This document shows positions 3,362 to 22,867 of a DNA stretch of 42,491 nucleotides, piece by piece; the stretch's first letter is position 1, and each line of letters starts with the position of its first letter. The notes under the pieces were generated by a model that was given only the letters and a program-made list of their open reading frames with translations, was not told the origin of the DNA and ran no database searches. The position numbers and the translations under genes are program-made. The stretch spans positions 1 to 42,491 of the forward strand of contig JAIXMF010000088.1 of the NCBI GenBank assembly GCA_025201365.1. The letters are read 5' to 3'. The DNA is from Syncephalis plumigaleata. Its lineage: Eukaryota; Zoopagomycota; Zoopagomycetes; Zoopagales; Piptocephalidaceae.

Positions 3362-3925
3362 GATATCACTACAGTTAGCCATTTCTAGTCAGCTAGACCG
3401 TAGAACAATAGATGTACAAGATTTGATTTAGCAGTCGTGTGTTTACGGGTAAGTAATAAAAACGAGCCGCCCATTTTCTCAATTGGCAGTGTAGATATGC
3501 AAAATGGTATATGATATTGCCTGTTGTTATATTGCTACTACTACTGCTACTACTACTACTGCTGCGAATAAAGTCGTCGTTTGACCACATTGTTAATTTG
3601 ACTTCTTCGACACTCCTTTCCCACTTTGAACATGCATCTCATTGACTACTTATATTTTATCACCATTTATTATAGATATCCAGTCAATGCTGCCTGCTAT
3701 CAATTCGTAACCACAACCACTACAACAAGAACCCTAGTTATTAGAGTGTGATAGTTTACATGTTGGTCTCCACAGACCGAACCCACTTTGGCTATTGTCA
3801 GTACAGACAATCGTGTAATTACTAGCAAGTGTCCCGCTTCTCTTGAACCGAGAGTGTAGTACTGCCACAGTGTTGGTAAACAAGCAAGCAACGCCTTTTC
3901 CCCTGATTCCTTTAGTATAACAATC

Positions 3926-5793
3926 ATGCCTCATCGCTTCTTGGAACATTTCCTACGTCGCAATGGAGGTGACGCCAGTAATAGCAACAGAAATAATGGA
4001 CTTACATTTCCGAATCCCATCTCTCTTGAAACCAGCAACAACAGCAACGACGACAACAACAACAGCAATACTACTACTACTACTACTACGCAATCAGCTT
4101 TCATTGATACTAGACGACGTACAAGTAGATATCTCGGCAATTTATTCAATCGTCTATCGAATGCACGTCAACCGACATTGACTGAATCCTCATTAGAACA
4201 GGATTTGCTAGTGACACGACTTGTCGGTCTATTGCCGGGTGCAGCCTGGTTACAATGTCATCGTTGTACAGCATTAATACGAGATCCAGTGGTGGTGTTT
4301 CATCCGGATGAGCAACTATCTACACACACTAGAAAGGAAAGACGAAGACTAAGAAGGGAAGCGGCTGCCGAGCAACCGGATCCCACATTACGACATGATG
4401 GCTGGGAAATTATAGATTATTTGGAGAGAGCGGAACTATGCTACCAAGAGGAGGATGTGGGTAATGGTCAAGGATTCCAAGTGTCTCCCGGTTTATTACG
4501 ACCGTATTGTCGATCATGTATAGCGGTAACACCAAATGCATCTACTTCTGCTACTGCTACTGCTACTACTAGCGCTAGTACTGCCGCCACTATGGATGAT
4601 CAACCACAAGTGACCTGGCTAGGACGCGTCATTGATGTCACCTTATTACGTATTCTCGACAGTGTTAGAACTATGGCCCTGGAACTTGGTCGTGCCATTG
4701 ACGACCAGGATAACGAGACGGATGAGATGACGCTTGCGGCTATCGCGGAATGTTATCGTCCACGTTTACTGGATGATCTACAATGTGATATATGTCGAAA
4801 TCTACTCTATCACCCTATTGTGACGCCGTGTGGACACACCTTCTGCCGTAGTTGTTTGGAACGAGCTCACGATCATAGTCAGATATGTCCATCGTGTAGA
4901 CAGTCATTGCCAAGTCCAGTGGTGCTATTCACTCAGGGCAAACATCATCTAGTAACGGCATTGACCAAATTGTGGTTCCCGCGTGAATTAGACGAGCGCA
5001 AAGACATGGCGCTTAAGGACGAACCATCCGGCCACTTCATTAATTATAACTTTCACGTGCATGGCGCATTGATACCAATATTCGTGTGTGCATTAGTATT
5101 TCCCGGTATGCCTTGTTACTTGCATATATTCGAGCCTCATTATCGTCTGTTGATTCGTCGTTGCTGGATGGGCTCTCGTCGATTTGGTATGGTGTGCAGC
5201 TGGCCACCCACACCAGAGGGACAGACGCCACCCTCGGATCGTCCGCTCTATCGGGAATACGGCACTATGCTATGGATAGAACGAGTACGCTTCCTACCCG
5301 ACGGTAGACTGGTGGTGCTGACTCGAGCGGAGCGTTATTTCCGAGTAATGCGCATTGAACCACAACTAGACGGCTATAACATGGCGAGTGTCATGTGGGT
5401 CGATGACTCGGACATTCCACAGCGATTTAGCTTGATTAATCCGCAAGAGCGTGAACATGACGAAATCGGTCTGACCAACACCATTCCTGATAGTGAGAGT
5501 AGTCGTCGTGATAGTACTTCTGATGGTAGTGGCGATGATATGGTTGTAGATACTACTCCATCACTACCATCTAATCATAGCGAGGAAAGAAACAACAACA
5601 GCAACGACGATGATGACGATGACGATGACGATGATCATGACAATGTGTCATGTAGTGATCATCATAGTAGTCGAGCACACTCGATGACGAATACAGCAAC
5701 GGCTAATGACTCAGTGGCTGTATCACTTGGTGCTAGTCTATTAGCTGCCGCTGCTACCGTAAGTAATCATGACCATCCTAATCCTACTACTAT

Positions 5794-5824
<31 letters not shown>

Positions 5825-6247
5825 GCTACTGCTACTACGCATACCACTCCTTTATCTGCCACCGCTGTTGTTGTCTCCAATACTGCAAATGTGGATATAA
5901 TGACACGTAATGCGGCCGCTTCCTTATATCATTCGCATCGCCTACTTGATCCAAATCTGATTGCACTTAGTCAACTCATCTATACGCGTATGATGTACTA
6001 TCGTCAACAAGCGACACATGTGCAACGTCAACAGATTGACAACGTCTACGGTAGTATGCCTAACAATGATGCGCAAGCACTTAGTTTCTGGGCCGCCAGT
6101 GTCGTCCCCATTGATAAACACATTCGCTACAACGCTCTAATAGTGGGCTCGGTGCGTAATCGACTTATTCTCATTTCACAATGGCTCGACGCCCTAGATA
6201 GAATGCATCAGAACTGGTGGCGTTCCAATGCATGTACCGTTATGTGA
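3926..6247 (+). CDS. RING-finger and LON substrate-binding domain protein (LONRF type)
   Basis: A single exon of 773 aa. A C3HC4 RING runs from C287 to C324 (CDICRNLL, TPCGHTFCRSC, CPSCRQS). An earlier, widely spaced CxxC pair set (LQCHRCTAL near residue 110 and YCRSC near 193) may be a degenerate first zinc domain. A LON N-terminal domain starts near residue 382 (IPIFVCALVFPGMPCYLHIFEPHY) and ends with the helical segment FWAASVVPIDKHIRYN near the C-terminus. The two LON parts are split by a long Ser/Thr/Asn/Asp-rich insert (about 515-655) with poly-Asp and poly-Thr coded by GAY and ACT repeats. RING plus LON is the LONRF arrangement, so an E3 ubiquitin ligase role is likely; substrates are unknown. 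The start is the first in-frame ATG of the open frame. Confidence 0.88.
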
Positions 6248-7207: not shown

Positions 7208-8160
7208 TTATAATTTAGCCACTGCAGATTGAACGTGGTATGGCAACAAGAATGGTTGTACCATATCGTTGACTTGCTTCTTGACCGCTGCCAGATTAGC
7301 CCCGTTGACCGTCATTCGATAGTGGATAAGCGTGGAGATAAGCTGATTATTCAGCTTTTGTGCCAGCAAATTTTTAGCCGGTTGGGTTACCTCATTGTAA
7401 GGATAAGTTGCGCTGAAATTAATGAAGAACAAATTGTTGCCATGCAAACAAATGCTCTTATCGATATTTCCATGATACGCCCATTTCTTCTTTGCCATAA
7501 AATTGATAACCGTTAGAATCTGGCTTGATATGTGATTGACAAATTCGAGCTTCTCTGCTGGTGTGTTGAATTTCCTCGTGTTAAAAGCATCGTACAACAG
7601 AGAATCACATTTTCTTGGTGACATGTAGCAAATCTCCGATGGAAACTTGTACTGATTGACATTGAAAGGGAAGAAAGCATTTGACATATCGACTTTCTTG
7701 CTAATGCCCTCGTCGTAGAATTGCTAGTTTAAATAGTGTACCCATTGTTATTATGGTAAATAAATGTCATTTGCATTATACTTACCTTGTATATCAAGTA
7801 GGTTGCACTCTTGCTGTTTTGATCGCCACAAGCAACAGTTACCGGATTGCCTCCGAATGTACCGACGGCTATCCTGGCACCGCCATTGGTACTTAGCACC
7901 TCTTTAATATTTAAACCATGAACACTCTTGATGTTGTTACCCATGACGCTGTATGGATCATTGGCATTCTGCGTTTGTGATGATAGCGCATCAAATTATC
8001 AATAAATAATGTAATCATCTAGTTCCATGTTGATGTTACGTACCTGTGAAGAGCCAAACCATAAGAATGACATTGCAGCACTTTGCACATCGGTTACCAG
8101 AAGTAATGTGCTAACAAGTGTAGCAGCAATCAAATTGTACTTTGGAGAAAGGGAGATCAT
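7208..8160 (-). CDS. Secreted kinase-like protein with degenerate catalytic motifs (pseudokinase)
   Basis: Three exons, 8044-8160, 7786-7968 and 7208-7723, join in phase to 271 aa. The N-terminus (MISLSPKYNLIAATLVSTL, cut after about residue 27) looks like a signal peptide. The rest matches in layout the kinase encoded at 12225-13614: a beta3-like LIYK with Lys near residue 100, a helix SSQILTVINFM, then YHGNIDKSI where active kinases have HxDxKxxN, and NFS (202-204) where the paralogue has DFD. Catalytic Asp is Asn186, the loop Lys is Asp188 and the metal-binding Asn is Ile191. No APE motif or full C-lobe follows. It is therefore probably not an active kinase. An intron sits directly after the signal-peptide exon, as in the paralogue. 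No homologue outside this window is known to me. Confidence 0.65.
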
Positions 8161-9865
8161 ATTGACGATGATAATGATGTTGATGATGTTGATGATACGC
8201 GTTACGATGATTGTTCACTAGGAACCACGAGTGTAGAGTAGAGAAAGATAAAGTGAAGAGCGTGAAATGGAATGGAATGAATGAAAAGGCGATGTTGTTA
8301 CTTGATTGTCTCTAGACCAGCGAGCGATACAGATACATACACCGCTTAATTGCAAATACCATCTTTGGTATTTATAACAAATGGAATAGCTTCTCTATTG
8401 GATAGTGCGATCGTGTGTTTTACTCGAAACATCGTGCACACCAACCTAGAACCATTTCCAGTCATGGAAACGTGGTGTTGTTGTTCGTTATGGCACGTAT
8501 AAATTAGGCACCACGGAGCATCATCCAAAACGGTAAATCTCTAACGAAATACATGTGGCATTTCCAATGAACATTGATTAAGAGGACTGGGCCCATGTAA
8601 AATATATGTTGATTGTGCATGTGCGCTCGTTTTCTAGAAATCTAAAAAGGGGTACACGCTTCACTATAATCCTGGTTGCAGAAATACGAAAACCATGGTA
8701 GAACAGTTCAGTCGTCGTCATTTCTCCCTAATCATTTATGCAAGAGAGCAATATAATCGTGTGTGCGTGTGTCACGTACATGAAAATAACCATTAGAAAT
8801 AAATGAATGAATGATAGTGTAATGCTAGATGACTTGTTCATTATAGCATGTCATTTACAGGCTTTTTCCATCCAATTTGCGCAGTTAGCTTTTTGTCTTT
8901 ACGAATAAATAATAGTTACCACTAATTGTAATATATGATATCGCGATCATTAACATCTCCCTCAACTGCTAGGGCGATGACAACTACTCAATAATAATAG
9001 TAATGCGATAATGGTGTTAACAATTGTGTAGAGTTATCTATTAATAAACTGCAAAAGTTAAAGGATAAATGCGCTAATTGGATGGAAAAACACTGTATGC
9101 CAAGTACGCATTGTTGTCTGGCTAAAAAAGAATACCCAACTGATTTGTGTTGTCATTTTTACTGCCGCATGGTTTTTTTTGGGGAGGAGCGGAATATACA
9201 CCTAGTGAGGATGTTACCAGTATGATTGTATGTATTAATAGCATTGACATGTGTTGTCATATTATGCGCACACAACATCACTTGTATACAATGATAACAA
9301 TAATAATGTAATTACTTGTAAGATGGATACAGCTGCTTTATGCTGCGAAATACTGATAAATATGCAATGTAAATGATGATATAAATAAACAGATGAAATT
9401 ATCACTAGTATACGTATTTGTTCTATCGGGTGTTTGACTTGCCGATCCGATAACGCAGTCATTATTGATCTGTAATCGTTCATGGATAACCCAACAACTT
9501 GGCTTGTGGTGACCGGTACTCTCTTTGCCGCAAATCTAATGCCGATGTTGATAATAAAAGTTACTCGGGAATGATTATATCTCCGGAAGTTGTTCGTAGT
9601 ACGTGTGTGCGTGTGTGTAAGAACGTCTATAAAACTACGAACATTCGATGTTGCTGTCTAAGATATGTATTGTTCATTGCACTCACACAGTCTCACTCAC
9701 ACGCATACGCACGTATTGTTAGTTACTCACTTTTTCATAACATCAATTCAGTTTATCTCGGTTGTCTGTACTCGCTTTGTGACAGTGCTATTTCTGGTGT
9801 AGTCGATTTACGTTGCATCTCGTAGTTTCATCGTATAGCCTACTTGAAATTCAATTTACAACGAT
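8161..9865. other. Intergenic region with a MITE
   Basis: Between the minus-strand kinase-like gene and the plus-strand acyltransferase. Apart from the MITE at 8858-9095 I see no gene. The short open frames at 8346-8528, 9262-9483 and 9499-9825 have no recognisable domain and are judged chance. Confidence 0.55.
8858..9095. mobile_element. MITE copy A, TA target duplication, 238 bp
   Basis: The left end CAGGCTTTTTCCATCC and the complement of the right end CAGTGTTTTTCCATCC are terminal inverted repeats that agree over about 27 bp apart from the two bases after CAG and one internal base. Both sides are flanked by TA (8856-8857 and 9096-9097), the target duplication of the Tc1/mariner/pogo superfamily. 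It has no coding capacity. The element at 20484-21062 has the same two distinct end types in opposite orientation and shares a further stretch inside one end, so the two are copies of one family. Confidence 0.85.
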
Positions 9866-11719
9866 ATGCCAGCAGCTGCACATGAGTGCGATACCGTTGA
9901 CAACAGTCTACGTCAACGTCATCAAGCCACATCACTAATTGATGACAAGCAAGCAACATTTGAAGCAGATGAAAGGTTGCCGACATCCATCGGTGCGGAG
10001 GGAGTATCGCCAGCTTCAACTGCATCAACCTCTTATCATCTGAATCCAATCGATGACATATTTGTACGTATTACTACGCCAGAACGTAACTTTGGCGTGG
10101 CATCTCTATTCTGGGTGGAAGGCAATGTCCATACGACTACCATTCTATCATTGATGGAGCGTCTAGTGGAACGTGAACCGAAATTTCGACAACGCTGTAT
10201 TCAAGGATCGTTTTTCAAAACAGCACACTGGGTGGACATGGAAACAACAACAGCAATGACAACGACAACGATCAAGGATGATACGGGTATCATTGAATCA
10301 AGTAGCAATGAAGCGCTACCAGCTCATGCATGGAGTGTTAAGGATCAGCTTCATGTAATAGAAATGGATAGGAATAATGGTGAAACCGCGACATCCAAGG
10401 AAGCAGTCGAAGAATACGAGAAAAGGTGGATCGAGGACAAGTTTAGTGAGTTTGTCAGCCGCTCTTTCGACATGCGCCTTCCTATGTGGCGTCTCTTGCT
10501 AGTACGTGGCCTATCGGGAAATCGATCCGTTATTGGTATAGTGTCTCATCATTGTATGGCTGATGGGCAAGGATTTGCTCGGGTAATGAGCAGTATAATG
10601 AAGCCGGTAGAACTTGACACCGATACACAAACTAGCCTAAAAACCACACTTGCAACAACAGGATCAATAGGTACAAAGAAATTGCCACCAGTCTCCTTGG
10701 GCGATCAGAATGAAGATGCCACGATAGCATTACGTAATTTTGCTCTTACCGTTCATGCGCAAATCGAACTTACGTTAGGTGTATTAGTACATCTATTGCT
10801 TGTCTTGTGGTATTCACTCCTAACCCTGACTAGAGTGACATTCTTTAGTCGTCAAAGTTTCCGTACACATCACCCGCAGACTAACAAGAAACGCATTGCG
10901 TGGACCGATGCAATGAGTATGAGCGATATTAAAACTATACGAACTGCATATCCCAAGGTTACGCTTAATGATGTTATGGTTGCCTGCGTGGAGCGATCGT
11001 TTGCCGCCTACATGGACAGTATCGATCGGGAGATGAATGATGAAGACGGCAGCAACAACAATAGTGATGGTATAAACACGTCTAGCTTACGAAATCACCG
11101 TCGTGATAACATGCTTAATCTCAGTGTTCCAAAAGGTCTTCGCGGCATTAGCGACTCTCGTTTCGAGAATCTTGCAGGTATCGATTATTTGTTACTTCCA
11201 CTTTTACCGGAATCTGCATCAACATCCACTGTAATCAAGCATGCACACGAATGTATGAATCGCGTGAAAATGTCGCAAATTGCATCTGCCACAAGAGCAG
11301 CTACTTTTGCAGTTACCAAGTTACTTGGTCCAGGTGCTATTTCAGTACCATTGTAAGTGATATACGCGATAAATTATGATTATAATGCAATACTAATTGA
11401 TCTACTTTATTATAGCTTAAACCATTACATGGACAACTCTCATGGTATTCTCACAAATGTACCTGGTTCACCGAGAGAACTCTACTTTGCTAATGGTGCT
11501 GAAAAGCATCGTATCATCTCGTGTATCATGTACCCGCCCGCACTGTTTGAAGGATCAACCAGTATTGCTATCGCCTCGTATAATGGCGAGGTTAGAATAG
11601 GCCTCATCGCGGATGATTTGTCCGAATATCCGGACCAAGCACGTGTAATGGCAGATGGCATTTATACAGCATTCCAAAAGATGCTACTGGATGCTTGTGA
11701 TGGGCCTGAGTCGTTGTAA
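9866..11719 (+). CDS. WS/DGAT-type O-acyltransferase (wax ester synthase/diacylglycerol acyltransferase family)
   Basis: Exons 9866-11352 and 11416-11719 join through a 63-nt GTAAG/TATAG intron to 596 aa. The active-site motif HHxxxDG is present as HHCMADG (228-234), with the expected PMWRLLLVRG block shortly before it. After the intron the conserved TNVPGS motif of the C-terminal WS/DGAT domain appears. The N-terminal part (DDIFVRITTPERNFGVAS) matches the family's substrate-side start. A hydrophobic segment at about 303-325 may anchor the enzyme in the ER or lipid droplet membrane. Members use acyl-CoA to esterify fatty alcohols or diacylglycerol; the real substrate cannot be told here. An Asn/Ser-rich loop lies near 390-415. 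It is flanked by secreted kinase-like genes with no clear functional link. Confidence 0.85.
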
Positions 11720-12224
11720 TAAGCAAAGCAATGTATTCGAGCATTATTTCATTCGTATATTTATAATAATAATACAGCTGTTGTTGTGTCAATATACAAA
11801 AGTAAATACTATGATCTGGGTTTATTTAGCATGGCAGCACTTGATGGCTGGTTAACATTCAGCTATATGTTTGTTGGAATGATAACACCAGTACCGAGGT
11901 AGTTCTCATTCAATACAGGAATTTCTTAGGGGAACACAAGGAGAAAGAAAATAGGTTTTAAAGCCAAAACATCTTCTCCCTTAATCAAGTAGCATCATGG
12001 TGATTACTAGATTGGAATGCTCAATAAATTAGACACACCACTTACATGAGGACCGTCGTGGTAAGTAAGCTTGCTGTGGCATATGGAAGACGAATGAACA
12101 GGAGTGATGGAGCATTTGCCATTGCTGCAAGCTATTTAAGCATGCGCTGATAGATGTTTCGCTGCGAGTCGGTATAATTTTCGACATCTTACACTTCATT
12201 TACATTTTTACGATCGATTAAATC
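11720..12224. other. Intergenic, no gene seen
   Basis: This region of 505 bp holds the 3' end of the acyltransferase and the promoter of the secreted kinase. No coding sequence or repeat was recognised. Confidence 0.5.
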
Positions 12225-13614
12225 ATGCTCAAGTCCGCAGCTACGTTTCTTGTTGCCTTGAAGGCAGTTGCTCTTATCCTAGGCGTGCCCACTATACTAG
12301 CAAGTCCAGTAGCGTCTGAAATCAAGCGAGGTATGTATTCAGTCATTATGCTGTGATGTGCGTATATTAACATAGCGATTGGTTAGGTAAAATCCGATCC
12401 GATATCTTCCTGGGAGCACAGATTACAAGTATACAACGCCACTTTACTCCACACAAGGTTACACTTATCAAAACAATTGGAAGCAATGATGAGCAAGATA
12501 TTGCGCTTGCATCTGGAAAATATGGAGAATCAGCTGCATTTATCAAATGTCTAACTCAGCAACCATTTAGAGGATCAGCATTTGGTCGAGAGGCAGAAAT
12601 AGACAAGGAAATGGAAGCATTTTTGGTAAGATACTTGACATTTATTGTATGCACATACTAATCATGTTTCTTTTTCGCTTTTCTATCTAGATCCTTCAAA
12701 AGGCTGATGCTCGACCGGGAAGCGACAAACTAATTGGCTATACCAATGTTTCCCGTGCTTATACGCATTTTGAATATGGGAATAATTATTGCTTCGTATA
12801 CTCGTATGATGGCGATACTGACCTATTTGAATACCTTTACATGACATCGCCAGATAAGACCCCACTGGTGTCGCTGGATAACATTCCACTGATACGCTCG
12901 CTCATTACTGAGATCTTGAGTGGAATTATTTACTTGCATAATGCTCAACTGGTCCACCACGATATCAAGCTGGAGAATGTAGTTGTTTCATTCCCATATC
13001 CCCATGACAGAAGCAAGCCAAAAGCCACAATCATCGACTTTGATCTTTCAGAAAGAATACGTTATAATGGCAAAAATATCGTTCCGACTAGCAAGTCTTC
13101 AGGAAGCTCGCATTATATAGCACCAGAAGTTTATGCCAATAAGCTAGCAGACCCTACGAAAAAAGATGTCTGGGCAGCTGGTATTGCACTTTATGGCTTG
13201 TTAAAGAAATCGTTCCTATTTCATGCTAGGAGTGAAGCTGAACTTGCTCGTAACATTATGAATACACTTAAATATGGAATTCCAGAGAAAAATTTCGTTT
13301 TTACTGAAGCACAAAAACGACAAAAGGGGATGGACTCGTTAGTCAGAGCTCTCAAAGCTATGCTAACGCCAGATCCTGCAAAACGACCATCCGCCAGCGA
13401 GTGCTTAGATATCATCAACGAAGTTAATCCATTACCTAAAATGCAACCAACCATGTCAGCAGGAACATCCACCCAATTAGAAACAATTACTAAAGGTATA
13501 GGATCTATTAGATTAGGATCTGGATCACGGAACAACAATCAATGGAATGTGCCACAACAATTGTCACAACGCATGAATGTACCCATTGGGTCTAGTACCA
13601 CATTAGGATTCTGA
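12225..13614 (+). CDS. Secreted protein kinase with DFD in place of DFG
   Basis: Exons 12225-12330, 12387-12625 and 12691-13614 join in phase to 422 aa. The start MLKSAATFLVALKAVALIL is a convincing signal peptide, ending near residue 30. The kinase fold follows: beta3 AAFIKC with Lys89, alphaC acidic residues (FGREAEIDKEME), catalytic loop HHDIKLEN (Asp206, Lys208, Asn211), IIDFDLS (231-233 read DFD), IAPE near 259-261 and DVWAAG. All catalytic residues are kept, so activity is likely, with the third DFG position changed to Asp. A Ser/Gln/Asn-rich tail (about 355-422) has no domain. No ER retention or membrane segment is seen after the signal, so the enzyme would act in the secretory lumen or outside the cell. 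It is the intact member of a local family of three. Confidence 0.82.
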
Positions 13615-14758
13615 TAGGGAATTATACTACGCTCATGCCTATGCCTTATGCAACAACAGCTTCAGCAATTTACGAATACACATGGTACACACATAGAATC
13701 TAGAAAAGCGCAATAAGTTGGAGGCCATTCCTTTAGACATATGCCACAAGTTGCGCGAGTAACGAATGACATTTACACAGATTACAAATAAAACTACGTT
13801 ACCTTACACATGGTTGGTATGAATAAACCGCGCATTAGTGTACGCATTGTATTAAATGAGTATACAAGTGATCTTCATGCTATCCTTATGAGCTCACGAA
13901 GACATCACAACGAAGCATGATCATCAATGGCAATGAATTGATTGGTGACACTTTACAATCCAAAGAGTGATGGAAGCGGTCAACTATCTGTGCTGATTTT
14001 ATTTATCCTATAGCATAGCGAGAACATCACATATTGACATGGCAAGCGTGCATTAGTACCATTTCAGTAAGCATGATTGCTCCTGCTTGAAGTAACCAGC
14101 TGCTTCATCTCGCGGTCTCATTCGGATACAGACATTAGAAGTGGGATAAGGAACCTTAGTGCTCATTGTCTATTCACTCGTTATGTCGCTTATGCTATCC
14201 ATGGTATTGTCAACACGTGTGGCATATCAGCCTCACCTCATGGTGCCTATCTGATAAAGAGTACTTGACAAGTATTCACATGTGGCGTGGATGGCTTGCA
14301 CGTTTAGAATACCAGTAAGATTGTCGACCACACCGTAGCGAACTGTTACATCATGGCAGATTCATTGACTTGTGGTGTTCAGCTAAACTACATTAGAGAA
14401 GACGATTGCTGGATGCGACATTATTTCGTAGATCAAATAGCATATGTCTCCTTGATGAAGTTACATTGATAACGAGTTAATAATGAAATAGACATCAATG
14501 GAACTTTCACATTCGACACTCGTATGCATTATACTTGTACTTGCAGTAGAATCCATTTAACATCGGCTATCTACAATGATAGGCACCACATCGGTATTGG
14601 AAAATAAGGATAGAACATTAATGGTACTAATTTATGTCCTATAACCTGGCGTGTACTTGTTATTAGTCCGCCGAGCATTTAGTCAACGAATAAAAGCATC
14701 ATTAGACATTCTCGCTCGTCCAGGTAGAAACATTTGCTCATCTTGTCGCGATAAAATC
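13615..14758. other. Intergenic region between two kinase paralogues, no gene seen
   Basis: No recognisable coding exon. The open frame at 14077-14268 has no domain and no homology to the flanking kinases that I can see. Confidence 0.45.
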
Positions 14759-15933
14759 ATGCTTGGCCACAAGCACATTGCTGCTACTGGCTTGAAGATA
14801 TACACGATCTCATTGTGCTTATTTTATGCCGTAGCATCTCCCACTGGAGCCAGGGCAAACAACAGCAAGTGTACGGCAGTACTAGTATAGCTACTGGCTA
14901 ACTGGTGTACACAGATATCCAAACGTCTAACTTTCTAGGTTAAGGACTGGATTGGCCGGAGGTATTTGAAACGCAACTCATCCGTATAACTAAGGTGTTG
15001 TACATCAACCACGACAAGGGAATAAACATCGCGCAAGGATTCTACAAGACCACCGATGCGTTCATTAAGTGTGTCGATTACAACGCCTATGGCTATCCGA
15101 GTCGAGAGAATATACGAGCCATAGGAAGGGAAAGAGTCGCGTTCAATGTAAGTGCAAGTGTGGAAACGAGCTCTGCAACTAACATGACATGTGTTCATAA
15201 TGCTATAGCTCCTTGAAAAGCCAAGTCGAGCTTGATAGACGACCGAGCAATTGGACGGCAGTTTGTGTCGACACCGCTGATTATCGTCCCGTATCAAAGC
15301 AGCACCTGCTTCATATACTCTTATGATGGGGATACCGAACTGTCCTCCTACAAGTGGCCTGCATCACTTGGACAGAGTGTCCACACACTAATGTCTATAT
15401 TTACACAATTACTGCACGGTGTTGCCTATATTAAAAATGCAGGATTTGTGCATAACGACATCAAGCCTGAAAATGTCCTGATCTCATTTCCGTATGCCGA
15501 TAATCCGCAACGACCAAAGGCGACCATCGTTGACTTTGACCTTGCCACTCCAATAAAATACAGACGGGATGGCAAAACGGTGATTCCAGGATCGTTCTTT
15601 GGCGGCACACTCCAGTATCTTCCGCCTGAAACCCTTATGGGCATCTCGTCGGATCTGACCAAGAAGGACGTCTGGGGTGTTGGCGCAACCATCTTCCTTG
15701 CCATCACACGGCGGTACATATTCGGCAACGGTGACATTGATCATTGTAAGTCTATTGCACATCGCGTGTATCATAAAGGACTGCCAGAATCGCTTTTTAC
15801 ATTCACGAATGATCCAGCTGATATGGAGGACATGCATCCACTAGTCACCGCTTTGAAAGTAGCACTGGTGCCTAATTACACATCGCGTCCAAGTGCCGAA
15901 GAATGCTTGAGCACGATCGGACACACAGAATAG
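14759..15933 (+). pseudogene. Secreted protein kinase paralogue with broken reading frames
   Basis: Exon 1 starts at 14759 with a signal-peptide-like run (MLGHKHIAATGLKIYTISL, AVASPTGA). Exon 2 (about 14945-15147) carries TTDAFIKC, matching AAFIKC of the gene at 12225. Exon 3 (from 15209) carries YSYDGDTEL, HNDIKPEN, TIVDFDLAT, LPPE and DVWGVG, ending at 15933. The exons do not join cleanly. The natural acceptor at 14938 puts a TAA at 14941 in the kinase frame, and the natural acceptor at 15208 leads to a TGA after eight codons although those codons (LLEKPSRA) match the paralogue; one missing base near 15220-15230 would restore an alignment of equal length. Unusual AAG acceptors (15225 and perhaps 14944) could partly rescue it. 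Either a young pseudogene, an odd splice pattern, or base-call errors like those in the kinase gene at 38647. Confidence 0.6.
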
Positions 15934-17399
15934 CCATTTCGAGATGTTTCAATGGCAATGCAATTGTAACTATCAATACATGATCATACTCGCTATGGAT
16001 GCATGTCATTGAGCATATCATGAATGCATCTGTACTTCATTATGAGTAGCAAACTAGATATCTAATAAAGAATCGATATTGCAGTACCTGTTGATCACCA
16101 ATCATTTAGTGGCAAGTACTTGCAAATAAACAGCAATACGCATGTTTGATGCTTGCTATGCTGATTTGTTGCAATATTAACGATTACATTCATAAGAGCA
16201 ATCTTATTGTCCAGCATTCCCTTCCAATCTTACGTGAGCTGAGTTCATCATAGCACAGTAATCTATCATCATTTTAGGACTAGTATATCGTGTCTTGTAT
16301 GCATTACACTGGTCGATCACAGCGACATGTAATCTTTATAATATGAATAAATCAGCAGATTGTCCTTGTCTGCACAATCAACCTACCCTACAATCAGCAT
16401 ACTCATCAGTAGCCGTCATGGCAATTGACATGCTACGCTATTCAACATTGTCACAACATTGACAATTACATCATTAAACTGTACAAGCTAGAATGTCAAC
16501 ACTTTGCTGTGTATGAATATGAGGAAGCACCACATGGTTATGTTATTTGAAATGATGTCATGAATGCGTAAATCAACCTGTCAATGCACATATACTAGGT
16601 TGTCGACAATCATGCAGACCTCTGTATCAAAGGTAATGGGAACATCGTTTGCCTCAGTTTACATATTGAAGATATTGAGAAATGATGGTCGTGGTACCAT
16701 TTCCATCCTTCCACATAGTCAAAGGACTTGCTATTGCATAACAAAGGTGTAGTGCTTTTGTTCTATTTAGACATCTTATCCTTTACAGGTTGGTGATTGG
16801 AAAATGGAAATGGATGAATTTAGGCTGTACAAGTACCTCGTGTATTGTAATTGGAATTCCATAAGGAAAGATCATTGGAACAGCGATGCATCTAGAAAGA
16901 ACATATCCTTTCCGGTTATAATGATTCTAGTTCCGCATGATGTATTCTACACGCACCACGACCAAAGAAAAGCAAACACCAAGCGTATAGACTATTTTCA
17001 GTAATAGAATAAATTATCCGCCTTCTATTTGTGAGAATGTCGAAATGGTTAGCATGTGTTGACTTACTTTATCAATATGATGTGCCATTGAGGTATACAT
17101 ATTAGAGAGTGACGCATGCGGTTGCAAAACTGAACCATGTGCAATGCATGCTCGATATGTCAATGGTGCAAACGACAACTATACAAAGTGTTTCACTGCA
17201 TAACAGTAATTGGGGGGGGGCGTTCTACCGCGTGTCATCATCTATAAATTCGCCATTCTACGCAAGCATACCATTGTTGCTGCACGCTAGTCTTTCTTTA
17301 TTATTGCTACTACTGCTACTGCTACTACTACTATCATTATTGTTTTAAGCACTACTTGCTTATCTACACATCTCCATTGTTAGCTCTTTATCTACTATC
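15934..17399. other. Intergenic region, no gene assigned
   Basis: About 1.5 kb. Two short open frames (16564-16752 and 16804-17004) follow each other around a possible TACAG acceptor near 16789, but neither shows a domain, so I do not call a gene. A run of nine G (17212-17220) and a TATA box precede the next gene. Confidence 0.45.
17243..17248 (+). promoter_or_regulatory. TATA box of the secreted GPI-type protein gene
   Basis: TATAAA about 155 bp upstream of the start codon at 17400, followed by a pyrimidine-rich stretch of CTA/CTG repeats. It fits the strong, C-ending codon bias of the gene, which suggests high expression. Confidence 0.45.
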
Positions 17400-18143
17400 A
17401 TGTCCAAGCTTACCTACATTGCCGGCGTTCTGCTACTCGCCACCGCCGTAACTGCTCAAGCCACCACCGCCAACGATCCATTGGCCATTATCAATGCCGC
17501 AAAGTCAAACCTCGCCGCCATGAAGCAAAAGGAGGATACTCGCAAGACACCGATCGCCGGTATTTCCGCCGATTGTCAAGCGGCCATTAGCGGTCTTGAT
17601 GTCAATCCTGAGTGTATTGACGATATCGAGACCGATCCACAAGATCAGGACTTTGCCGCCCGCTGCGCAGCCCCCGCCGATGGAGCCAAGGATCATCGCT
17701 GTTCAAATGATCAAGTTCTTAAGGCGCTCGATACCCTAGAATCCAAGTGCAAAGCGGAACTTGACGCAAAGAATGCCAATGTCATGGCCTACCATACCAG
17801 CTGGCAAACTTACAGCCTTAGCGAGGAGATTCTGTGCTCTAAGAGCACCGCTGGAAAATACTGCATCCTAGATGCTTCTGACAAGCAATGTGCCACCAAC
17901 CAATTGAACCTCATCAAGGACTGGAAGGCACCACGCCCGGACAAGTATACCAATGACTCTGCCTCTACGCTGCGCACTGCTTCGGCCAATCTTGCTAAGC
18001 AAAACAACGTTGACGTGGCTCCGTCCAACAAGACTAGCGGTACTACCGGTACTACCGGTGCACCATCCACGGCATCGTCATTGACAACGGGTGCTGCCGC
18101 ATTGACTGCCGGTGTACTGGCTGTCGTTTCCATGTTGATGTAA
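17400..18143 (+). CDS. Secreted cysteine-containing protein with GPI-anchor-type tail
   Basis: Single exon, 247 aa. A signal peptide MSKLTYIAGVLLLATAVTAQA opens the protein. The mature part holds eight cysteines (in contexts ADC, PEC, ARC, HRC, SKC, ILC, KYC, KQC), enough for four disulfides, in a helix-prone body. A Ser/Thr/Gly linker (SGTTGTTGAPSTASS) leads to a hydrophobic C-terminal run (AALTAGVLAVVSMLM), the pattern of a GPI attachment signal, so it probably sits on the plasma membrane or cell wall. The eight Cys do not have CFEM spacing. Codon choice is strongly biased to C-ending codons, unlike neighbouring genes, pointing to high expression. I do not recognise the family; structural wall protein, adhesin or secreted effector are all open. 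Confidence 0.8.
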   Translation: MSKLTYIAGVLLLATAVTAQATTANDPLAIINAAKSNLAAMKQKEDTRKTPIAGISADCQAAISGLDVNPECIDDIETDPQDQDFAARCAAPADGAKDHRCSNDQVLKALDTLESKCKAELDAKNANVMAYHTSWQTYSLSEEILCSKSTAGKYCILDASDKQCATNQLNLIKDWKAPRPDKYTNDSASTLRTASANLAKQNNVDVAPSNKTSGTTGTTGAPSTASSLTTGAAALTAGVLAVVSMLM

Positions 18144-21484: not shown

Positions 21485-22867
21485 ATGAAGTTTTCTATCG
21501 CTACAGTATTGGCGGCCACCGCCTTACTCTCGGCCATGGCTCAGGCCAAGTTCACTACGTAAGTGTAGTTGTTGCTATACAGCAAATTAAAAACAAATTG
21601 CTTGTTTATTGGCAACCCCATCAATCGACTGATTGGTTTGTTGCAACGCACATGATGAATATACATGTATACATGTGTATATGTGATAATTTACTAATGA
21701 CAATGACAATGTCGCATTATTTTGTGTACATATAGTGTGAAAATCAAGCGTCTACCCGAGACGTCAGCCGAGAAATTGAACCGTTACGCCAACACTGCCT
21801 CGTATGTTGCACAACGCTACTTCACCTCTGACGCACGGAATCCAAACCTTAACATTCTGGGCAAGGACGAGAATGGCCAGGTCAAACATGGCGTGCCCAT
21901 CTCCAACTTCATGAACGCCCAATACTTTGGTGAGATCGGTATTGGCACGCCACCACAAACGTTCAAGGTGGTATTCGACACTGGTTCCTCTAATCTTTGG
22001 GTGCCTTCCACGCATTGCTCGTCCATTGCATGCTTCTTCCATTCTAAATTCGATTCGAGCAAGAGTAGCACGTTCAAGTCCAACGGCACCGAGTTTGCCA
22101 TTCGCTACGGTACAGGCAGTCTTGAAGGTATCATCAGCAATGACGTGATTACCGTGGGCGATATCGAAGTGAAGCATGCCGATTTCGGTGAATCCACGAA
22201 GGAACCCGGCTTAACATTTGCCTTTGGTCGATTCGATGGTATCTTCGGATTGGGCTACGATCGCATCTCTGTCAAGGGAGTCATCCCACCGTTCTACCAT
22301 ATGGTGGATCGCAAACTGATCGATAAGCCGTTGTTCAGCTTCTGGTTGAACGACGTAAAGTCAGGCGGTGAAGGTGGCGAGCTAGTGTTCGGCGACACCA
22401 ATCCCGACCATTACACGGGCGACATCCACTATGCTCCGGTAACTCGCAAGGGCTACTGGGAAGTGAAGCTGGAGAAGGTCCAATTCGACGGCGAAGACAC
22501 CGGACTTGACCCGGTGGGCGCAGCCATCGACACGGGTAGCTCGCTTCTCGTGGTGCCCACGGATTTGGCCGAGATGATCAACAAGCAGATCGGTGCCAAG
22601 AAGGGCTTTAACGGCCAGTACACCGTGGAATGCTCAAGAGTGCCTTCTCTGCCCGATTTCACCCTAACATTCAACAAGAAAGACTTTGTGTTGAAGGGAC
22701 AAGACTACATACTTGAGGTGCAAGGCCAGTGCATGTCCGGCTTTATGGGCATGGACATTCCAGCACCAATGGGTCCACTCTGGATTATCGGTGACGTTTT
22801 CTTGCGTAAATATTATACCGTCTACGATTTGAAGAATGATCGCGTTGGATTTGCCAAATCTAAGTAG
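21485..22867 (+). CDS. PEP4: Vacuolar aspartyl protease (saccharopepsin/proteinase A type)
   Basis: Exons 21485-21558 and 21736-22867 flank a 177-nt intron and give 401 aa. The signal peptide MKFSIATVLAATALLSAMA is followed by a propeptide (LPETSAEKLNRYAN) and the mature start NFMNAQYFGEIGIGTPPQTF. Both catalytic motifs are intact: FDTGSSNLWVP (Asp106) and AIDTGSSLL (Asp290), with the flap Tyr in IRYGTGSLEG and cysteine pairs CSSIAC and near the end (CSRVPS and GQC). The ending VFLRKYYTVYDLKNDRVGFAKS is typical of the family. It is a soluble, zymogen-activated endopeptidase of the vacuole/lysosome that matures other hydrolases. The upstream DNA is pyrimidine-rich, and codon use is biased as for a highly expressed gene. 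Confidence 0.95.

Follow-up and report, generated by a model that had tools for sequence, protein, structure and literature searches.

Introduction

In Toxoplasma, the ROPK proteins form a lineage-specific secreted family that mixes active and dead kinases and has a conserved disulfide (PMC3682881), and the WNG kinases (WNG1/ROP35 and BPK1) are likewise secreted, include kinase and pseudokinase members and carry an acidic residue in place of the Gly of the DFG motif (PMC6442604). WNG1 is reported to require this residue for activity, and both acidic residues of the DFD motif of RNase L to bind Mg (PMC6442604). The exported FIKK proteins of Plasmodium are described as an expanded set of Ser/Thr kinases whose substrate-binding loop evolves fast and whose ratio of non-synonymous to synonymous substitution rates (dN/dS) is 0.34 (PMC12137140). 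Among fungi, the FunK1 kinases show lineage-specific expansions (PMC3203195), and a microsporidian kinome study reports a signal peptide for 0 of its 131 kinases (PMC4280135). Here we analyse positions 1-42,491 (forward strand) of contig JAIXMF010000088.1 of the fungus Syncephalis plumigaleata (assembly GCA_025201365.1), a stretch of 42,491 nucleotides referred to below as the window, in which three genes between positions 7,208 and 15,933, called genes 1, 2 and 3, encode putative secreted kinase-like proteins. Searches of the open-licence literature found no description of a comparable family of secreted kinases in fungi.

Gene 2 and its relatives constitute a real, expanded, coherent and unusual family. 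On balance we favour a reading in which gene 2 is one member of a secreted Ser/Thr kinase family that has expanded, and encodes a soluble, active enzyme with a disulfide, whose substrate surface varies between copies and whose targets would be extracellular or host or prey proteins.

Results

Gene 2 and its copies

Gene 2 lies on the forward strand in three exons. Exon 1 (12225-12330) encodes a signal peptide with predicted cleavage after residue 26 (between ILA and SP) and ends in phase 1; exon 2 (12387-12625) covers beta1 to beta3 and alphaC, with the catalytic Lys89 followed by Cys90 and with the conserved Glu110; exon 3 (12691-13614) runs from beta4 to the end of the kinase domain and a C-terminal tail, and includes Cys149 (beta5), HHD (Asp206), Asn211, DFD (Asp231) and APE. 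The introns are GT-AG, of 56 and 65 bp, and the product has 422 residues. It matches the Pfam kinase model PF00069 at 101.1 bits (9e-29; cut-off 31.7), while NCBIfam returned for gene 2 exon 3 and for its relative C13 general kinase models only, far under their cut-offs. A first-pass annotation of this DNA had credited one of the three genes with all catalytic residues, and gene 2 does hold the complete set of Lys89, Glu110, Asp206, Asn211 and Asp231. Its departures from a canonical kinase are HHD for HRD, DFD for DFG and a degenerate Gly loop (IGSNDEQDIA).

A genome search with gene 2 retrieved at least 14 close copies, the window copy counted, and a few remnants. Splice modelling gave a first exon of 106 nt in 14 of 14, and in the 12 intact copies intron 1 measures 56 bp, exon 2 239 nt and intron 2 64-65 bp. 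Exon 2 of C112_966 has 281 nt with a short tandem repeat inside, and C112_963 and C112_1264 are broken. In one copy (L046, G000:C112:1257000-1266500) the exon 3 frame has 193 codons and the matching 3' part lies about 4.5 kb off, which suggests an insertion. Since genes 1, 2 and 3 recur in unchanged order on contig C112, near 980-990 kb, C112 and the window contig (C371) represent alternative haplotypes of one region; loci are therefore fewer than copies, and we estimate about nine for gene 2. Many further kinase places in the genome also occur as near-identical pairs, one on each of two contigs, so that the assembly appears to be heterozygous diploid. Chitin synthases occur at four places in this genome and in none of 14 prokaryote controls, which marks it as fungal.

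Signal peptides were scored with a von Heijne matrix (cut-off 3.5, reached by 8 of 82 control ATG-initiated open reading frames of at least 120 residues). Gene 1 scored 8.2, gene 2 8.3 and the gene 3 exon 6.9, values equalled by 4, 12 and 13 of 500 shuffles, respectively. All 14 gene 2 copies scored 8.3-10.0 with one common cleavage site, and three of the five more distant types scored, C124 (5.0), C100 (5.1) and C314 (4.4), also passed.

A shared signature

Searches with four relatives as queries brought out further, more distant members, and 12 gene types were read, fully or partly (gene 1, gene 2, gene 3, C124a, C124b, C235a, C235b, C13, C100, C314, C329 and C1). When gene 2 is aligned with seven divergent relatives that share 21-64% identity with it, the catalytic Lys, Glu, HxD Asp, Asn and DFx Asp are kept throughout; invariant positions are K89, C90, E110, G131, C149, H204, D206, N211, I230, D231-F232-D233, Y257, W276 and G279. 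Of the 12 types, 10 have Lys-Cys, 11 the beta5 Cys and nine, gene 2 among them, DFD; gene 1 is an exception with Ala-Cys and NFS. Six further, distinct kinases encoded in the genome were compared: none has Lys-Cys and one has a Cys in the beta5 column, which was aligned by eye. C13 contains two cysteines only, residues 97 and 139, placed by its structure model on strands 91-98 and 137-143. Because beta3 and beta5 adjoin in the kinase fold, we predict that the pair forms a disulfide, and the retention of both cysteines in gene 1 despite its loss of catalytic residues fits such a structural role.

An intron within alphaC is found in 10 of the 12 types, in phase 0 where the phase could be determined (for C124a and C235b it was deduced from a frame change), and is absent from C13 and C1. 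The first-pass annotation had proposed shared intron placement: the phase-0 donor in alphaC is indeed common to genes 1, 2 and 3, whereas the intron following the signal region differs, gene 1 having it in phase 0 and gene 2 in phase 1. In a tree with five other kinases from this genome (a small control set, mostly AGC), nine family members group in a single clade (support 99/98), which gives no indication of orthology to an intracellular kinase. A pattern search outside the genome gave 17 matches in viral contigs, with no relative, and 16 in bacterial and archaeal contigs, with one match of 51 residues at 36% identity that was taken as a generic kinase. The expansion, together with the Lys-Cys, beta5 Cys and DFD signature, strengthens the earlier idea of a distinct family.

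Conserved and variable parts of the copies

Identity among the 12 intact copies (66 pairs) is 93-95% over the 600 bp upstream, 94% in exon 1 and 96% and 95% in the introns, falling to 84% in exon 2 and to 89, 85 and 78% along exon 3; in the downstream flank it drops to 76% or below. Between copies (13 sequences), the ratio of non-synonymous to synonymous differences per site (pN/pS) is 1.0 in exon 2, and the core of exon 3 gives 0.70; three young pairs have non-significant values of 1.38-1.55. C112_1062 and C112_1059 are identical over about 480 alignment columns, while the 120-column blocks on either side show differences of 4 and 13%, a pattern pointing to gene conversion. Sequence entropy is 0.92 bits over alphaD, the activation segment, P+1 and alphaG, compared with 0.48 elsewhere in the domain; 4 of 295 circular shifts reach as high a value. 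Venom gene families are alike in having conserved introns and variable mature exons; a search of the open-licence literature for this parallel returned no relevant paper.

Gene 1, a candidate pseudokinase

Gene 1, on the reverse strand, encodes 271 residues. Exon 1 (8044-8160) specifies a signal peptide with predicted cleavage after residue 27 and ends in phase 0; exon 2 (7786-7968) corresponds to a degenerate N-lobe in which the catalytic Lys is replaced by Ala and the next Cys retained (VTVACGD); exon 3 (7208-7723) is a truncated C-lobe-like part with HGN for HRD, NFS for DFG and a Cys at the beta5 position (EICYMS). These three replacements agree with the earlier statement that one gene had lost its catalytic residues. 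Gene 1 has no kinase match in Pfam and no match in NCBIfam. It does match an N-lobe profile (hhalign E 4.4e-4, Prob 33.5), and without the signal peptide the match scores 30.1, with none of 200 shuffles above 23.8. What ties gene 1 to the kinases, more weakly than gene 2, is this profile match together with the two cysteines of the family and the intron in alphaC; it is probably a secreted pseudokinase of the gene 2 family. That it is no relative of kinases at all seems to us less likely than not, as the N-lobe match is in the right register, the two cysteines come with a signal peptide and a phase-0 alphaC intron, and a low-confidence structure prediction shows a helix-strand order resembling a kinase C-lobe, with kinases or pseudokinases making up 20 of 50 rows among the fold matches listed (our own count). 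A resemblance to YebY/DUF2511 (Pfam E 0.051-0.064, under the cut-off; PDB E 0.0027 over 66 residues) was judged to be probably chance because it leaves the N-lobe match unexplained.

A further kinase-like open reading frame, C1 (L067, G000:C1:1280780-1282180), has a signal-like start, HGS for HRD and a retained DFG, and is possibly another secreted pseudokinase.

Gene 3, an interrupted frame

Gene 3, on the forward strand, consists of a signal-peptide exon (14759-14868, donor approximate), an N-lobe exon (14944-15147) in the kinase frame with an FIKC motif and a TAA immediately upstream in that frame, and a C-lobe frame (15217-15933) that is open for 238 codons, contains TCFIY, HND and DFD, and is reached by a conventional intron-2 splice only in another frame. 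Exon 3 matches PF00069 at 73.2 bits. The gene had been described as having broken frames, and the conventional frame is in fact interrupted in the window, in the allele and in the C112:961 paralog: all three have the TAA ahead of the N-lobe frame and a border between exons 2 and 3 that is not continuous with the kinase frame, and the paralog has additional small length changes. The 238-codon frame is open in all three, with pN/pS of 0.35 (window and allele; Fisher p 0.025), 0.23 (window and paralog; 0.001) and 0.47 (allele and paralog; 0.26). The kinase exon (window, L042 and L039) is thus open and apparently constrained despite these interruptions, and gene 3 has accordingly either died only recently or is spliced at unusual sites. 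Taking the three genes together, membership of a local family of secreted kinase-like proteins is supported for gene 2 and its copies and likely for gene 3, with a weaker case for gene 1.

Neighbouring genes

Neighbours in the window, on the forward strand, encode a RING and LON-substrate-domain protein (3860-6247), a wax synthase/DGAT-type acyltransferase (9848-11719, between genes 1 and 2) and an aspartyl protease (21707-22867). A 264-residue open reading frame (17349-18143, forward strand) begins with a strong signal peptide and ends in a hydrophobic tail resembling that of a glycosylphosphatidylinositol (GPI)-anchored protein; its DUF7729 match is weak and under the cut-off.

Discussion

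Comparison with described kinases

The closest solved sequences and folds are CAMK/ULK-type Ser/Thr kinases (fold comparison of the C13 model by VIA-align), which are intracellular and have DFG where the gene 2 family has DFD. The beta5 Cys is absent in five such alignments; beta3 is covered only in two, both with ULK1 and both with Lys-Cys.

For each of the WNG, ROP and FIKK families, one defining feature was looked for in gene 2, and for FIKK in gene 3 too, and was not found. Like the published WNG kinases, the family looks secreted, replaces the Gly of DFG by an acidic residue, has an absent or impaired Gly loop and includes probably dead members. However, WNG1 has Glu after DF, compared with DFD here, and a basic residue two positions after the VAIK Lys, where gene 2 reads Lys-Cys-Leu; WNG kinases have lost beta1 and the Gly loop outright, whereas the C13 model keeps a beta1-like strand. 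The ROPK family, as described, is a lineage-specific and secreted mixture of active and dead members, as this one appears to be, and has a disulfide (here predicted), but in ROPK this bond links the WC motif of alphaF with the loop between alphaG and alphaH, and the Cys pair here is on beta3 and beta5; alphaF of gene 2 (DVWAAGIALYGLL) ends without a WC motif. The FIKK kinases are similarly expanded and variable on the substrate side, and are exported, as the gene 2 family appears to be, yet the motif at the catalytic Lys is FIKC rather than FIKK in both gene 2 and gene 3, and their reported dN/dS of 0.34 stands beside a pN/pS of 0.70-1.0 between copies for exons 2 and 3, two measures that differ in kind.

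Proposed action and alternatives

We propose that the gene 2 product probably enters the endoplasmic reticulum (ER), where Cys90 and Cys149 would form a disulfide on folding, and that the signal peptide would be removed and a soluble enzyme leave the cell. It would probably phosphorylate proteins from ATP through Lys89, Glu110, Asp206, Asn211 and Asp231, with the third, acidic residue of DFD probably helping to hold the metal and offsetting the poor Gly loop. While the signal peptide, catalytic core and upstream flank stay nearly constant between copies, gene duplication and conversion, with selection either relaxed or diversifying, may have varied the substrate-facing surface, so that the family could phosphorylate a range of extracellular or host or prey proteins. 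A role in host or prey contact is possible, but inferred.

Several points weigh against this proposal. The signal-peptide calls are predictions from a von Heijne matrix, and C235 and C13 score 1.3 each, under the cut-off, with 447 of 500 shuffles of C13 scoring as well as the real sequence. In both, however, the hydrophobic start and the kinase N-lobe share one reading frame with no intron, which bears on the doubt whether signal and kinase exons are joined. The disulfide is predicted from strand neighbourhood, and the signature has exceptions in C124b, with DLS, and in C1, which lacks both Cys and has HGS and DFG and one in-frame stop. As to selection, the substrate-facing ranges were assigned by us from the kinase fold; exon 1 has a pN/pS of 1.66 with few changes (13 sequences), so that its conservation is that of a DNA block and not clear purifying selection; and in pairwise tests (13 sequences) pN is significantly below pS in 29 of 78 pairs and significantly above it in 0 of 78, giving no sign of positive selection by this test.

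A bolder version, which we hold to be less likely than not, is that the fungus independently evolved a counterpart of the ROP, WNG and FIKK kinases: disulfide-stabilized DFD kinases would be exported together with a dead relative (gene 1, 4 kb away with the acyltransferase gene between), their surface diversified against hosts or prey and their signal peptide, upstream region and introns nearly constant.

Clearly less probable than the preferred reading is an action like that of Fam20C in animals, inside the secretory pathway (ER or Golgi) and on the fungus's own exported proteins, with no host action. Signal peptides are present, host evidence is nil, ATP is present in the Golgi lumen and the window encodes at least one other secreted-looking protein (17349-18143). 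However, none of the C-termini read has an ER-retention ending, 14 near-copies with varied substrate-facing surfaces would be unusual for a housekeeping Golgi kinase, and the Pfam matches of genes 1 and 2 and gene 3 exon 3 at E <= 1 include no model of the Fam20/FAM69 type, in line with the first-pass annotation.

On a par with this, and equally doubtful, is the suggestion that the family branched early within the fungal-specific FunK1 kinases (PF17667) and acquired signal peptides. FunK1 is the nearest fungal family and, in its published description, shares lineage expansion with the gene 2 family; C100 (33.6 bits), C314 (25.3) and, in the genome search, C358:2015 (28.8) and C112:1049753 (27.7) exceed its cut-off of 24.1 bits. 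Yet gene 2 (13 bits) and gene 3 (20.7 bits) stay under it, outside the genome search PF00069 outscores PF17667 in each protein matching both, the best stretches span only part of the profile, around the catalytic loop, and secretion does not figure in the FunK1 description consulted (PMC3203195). Additional PF17667 places in the genome are C1:1083834, C190:5200 and C373:130127. That the hydrophobic N terminus is an uncleaved membrane anchor, making these surface kinases, would suit the low-scoring C13 and C235, the latter with a very hydrophobic N terminus (Kyte-Doolittle, KD, 3.46), but is improbable given the good scores at one site in every gene 2 copy.

The preferred reading, of a secreted and active family, would have consequences beyond this locus. 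Apicomplexan parasites are known to use exported kinase families as weapons, and a fungal example, if true, would show convergent use of the kinase fold. The Lys-Cys, beta5 Cys and DFD signature allows searches of other genomes as well as biochemical tests, and, if the family is secreted, extracellular phosphorylation by fungi becomes a testable question.

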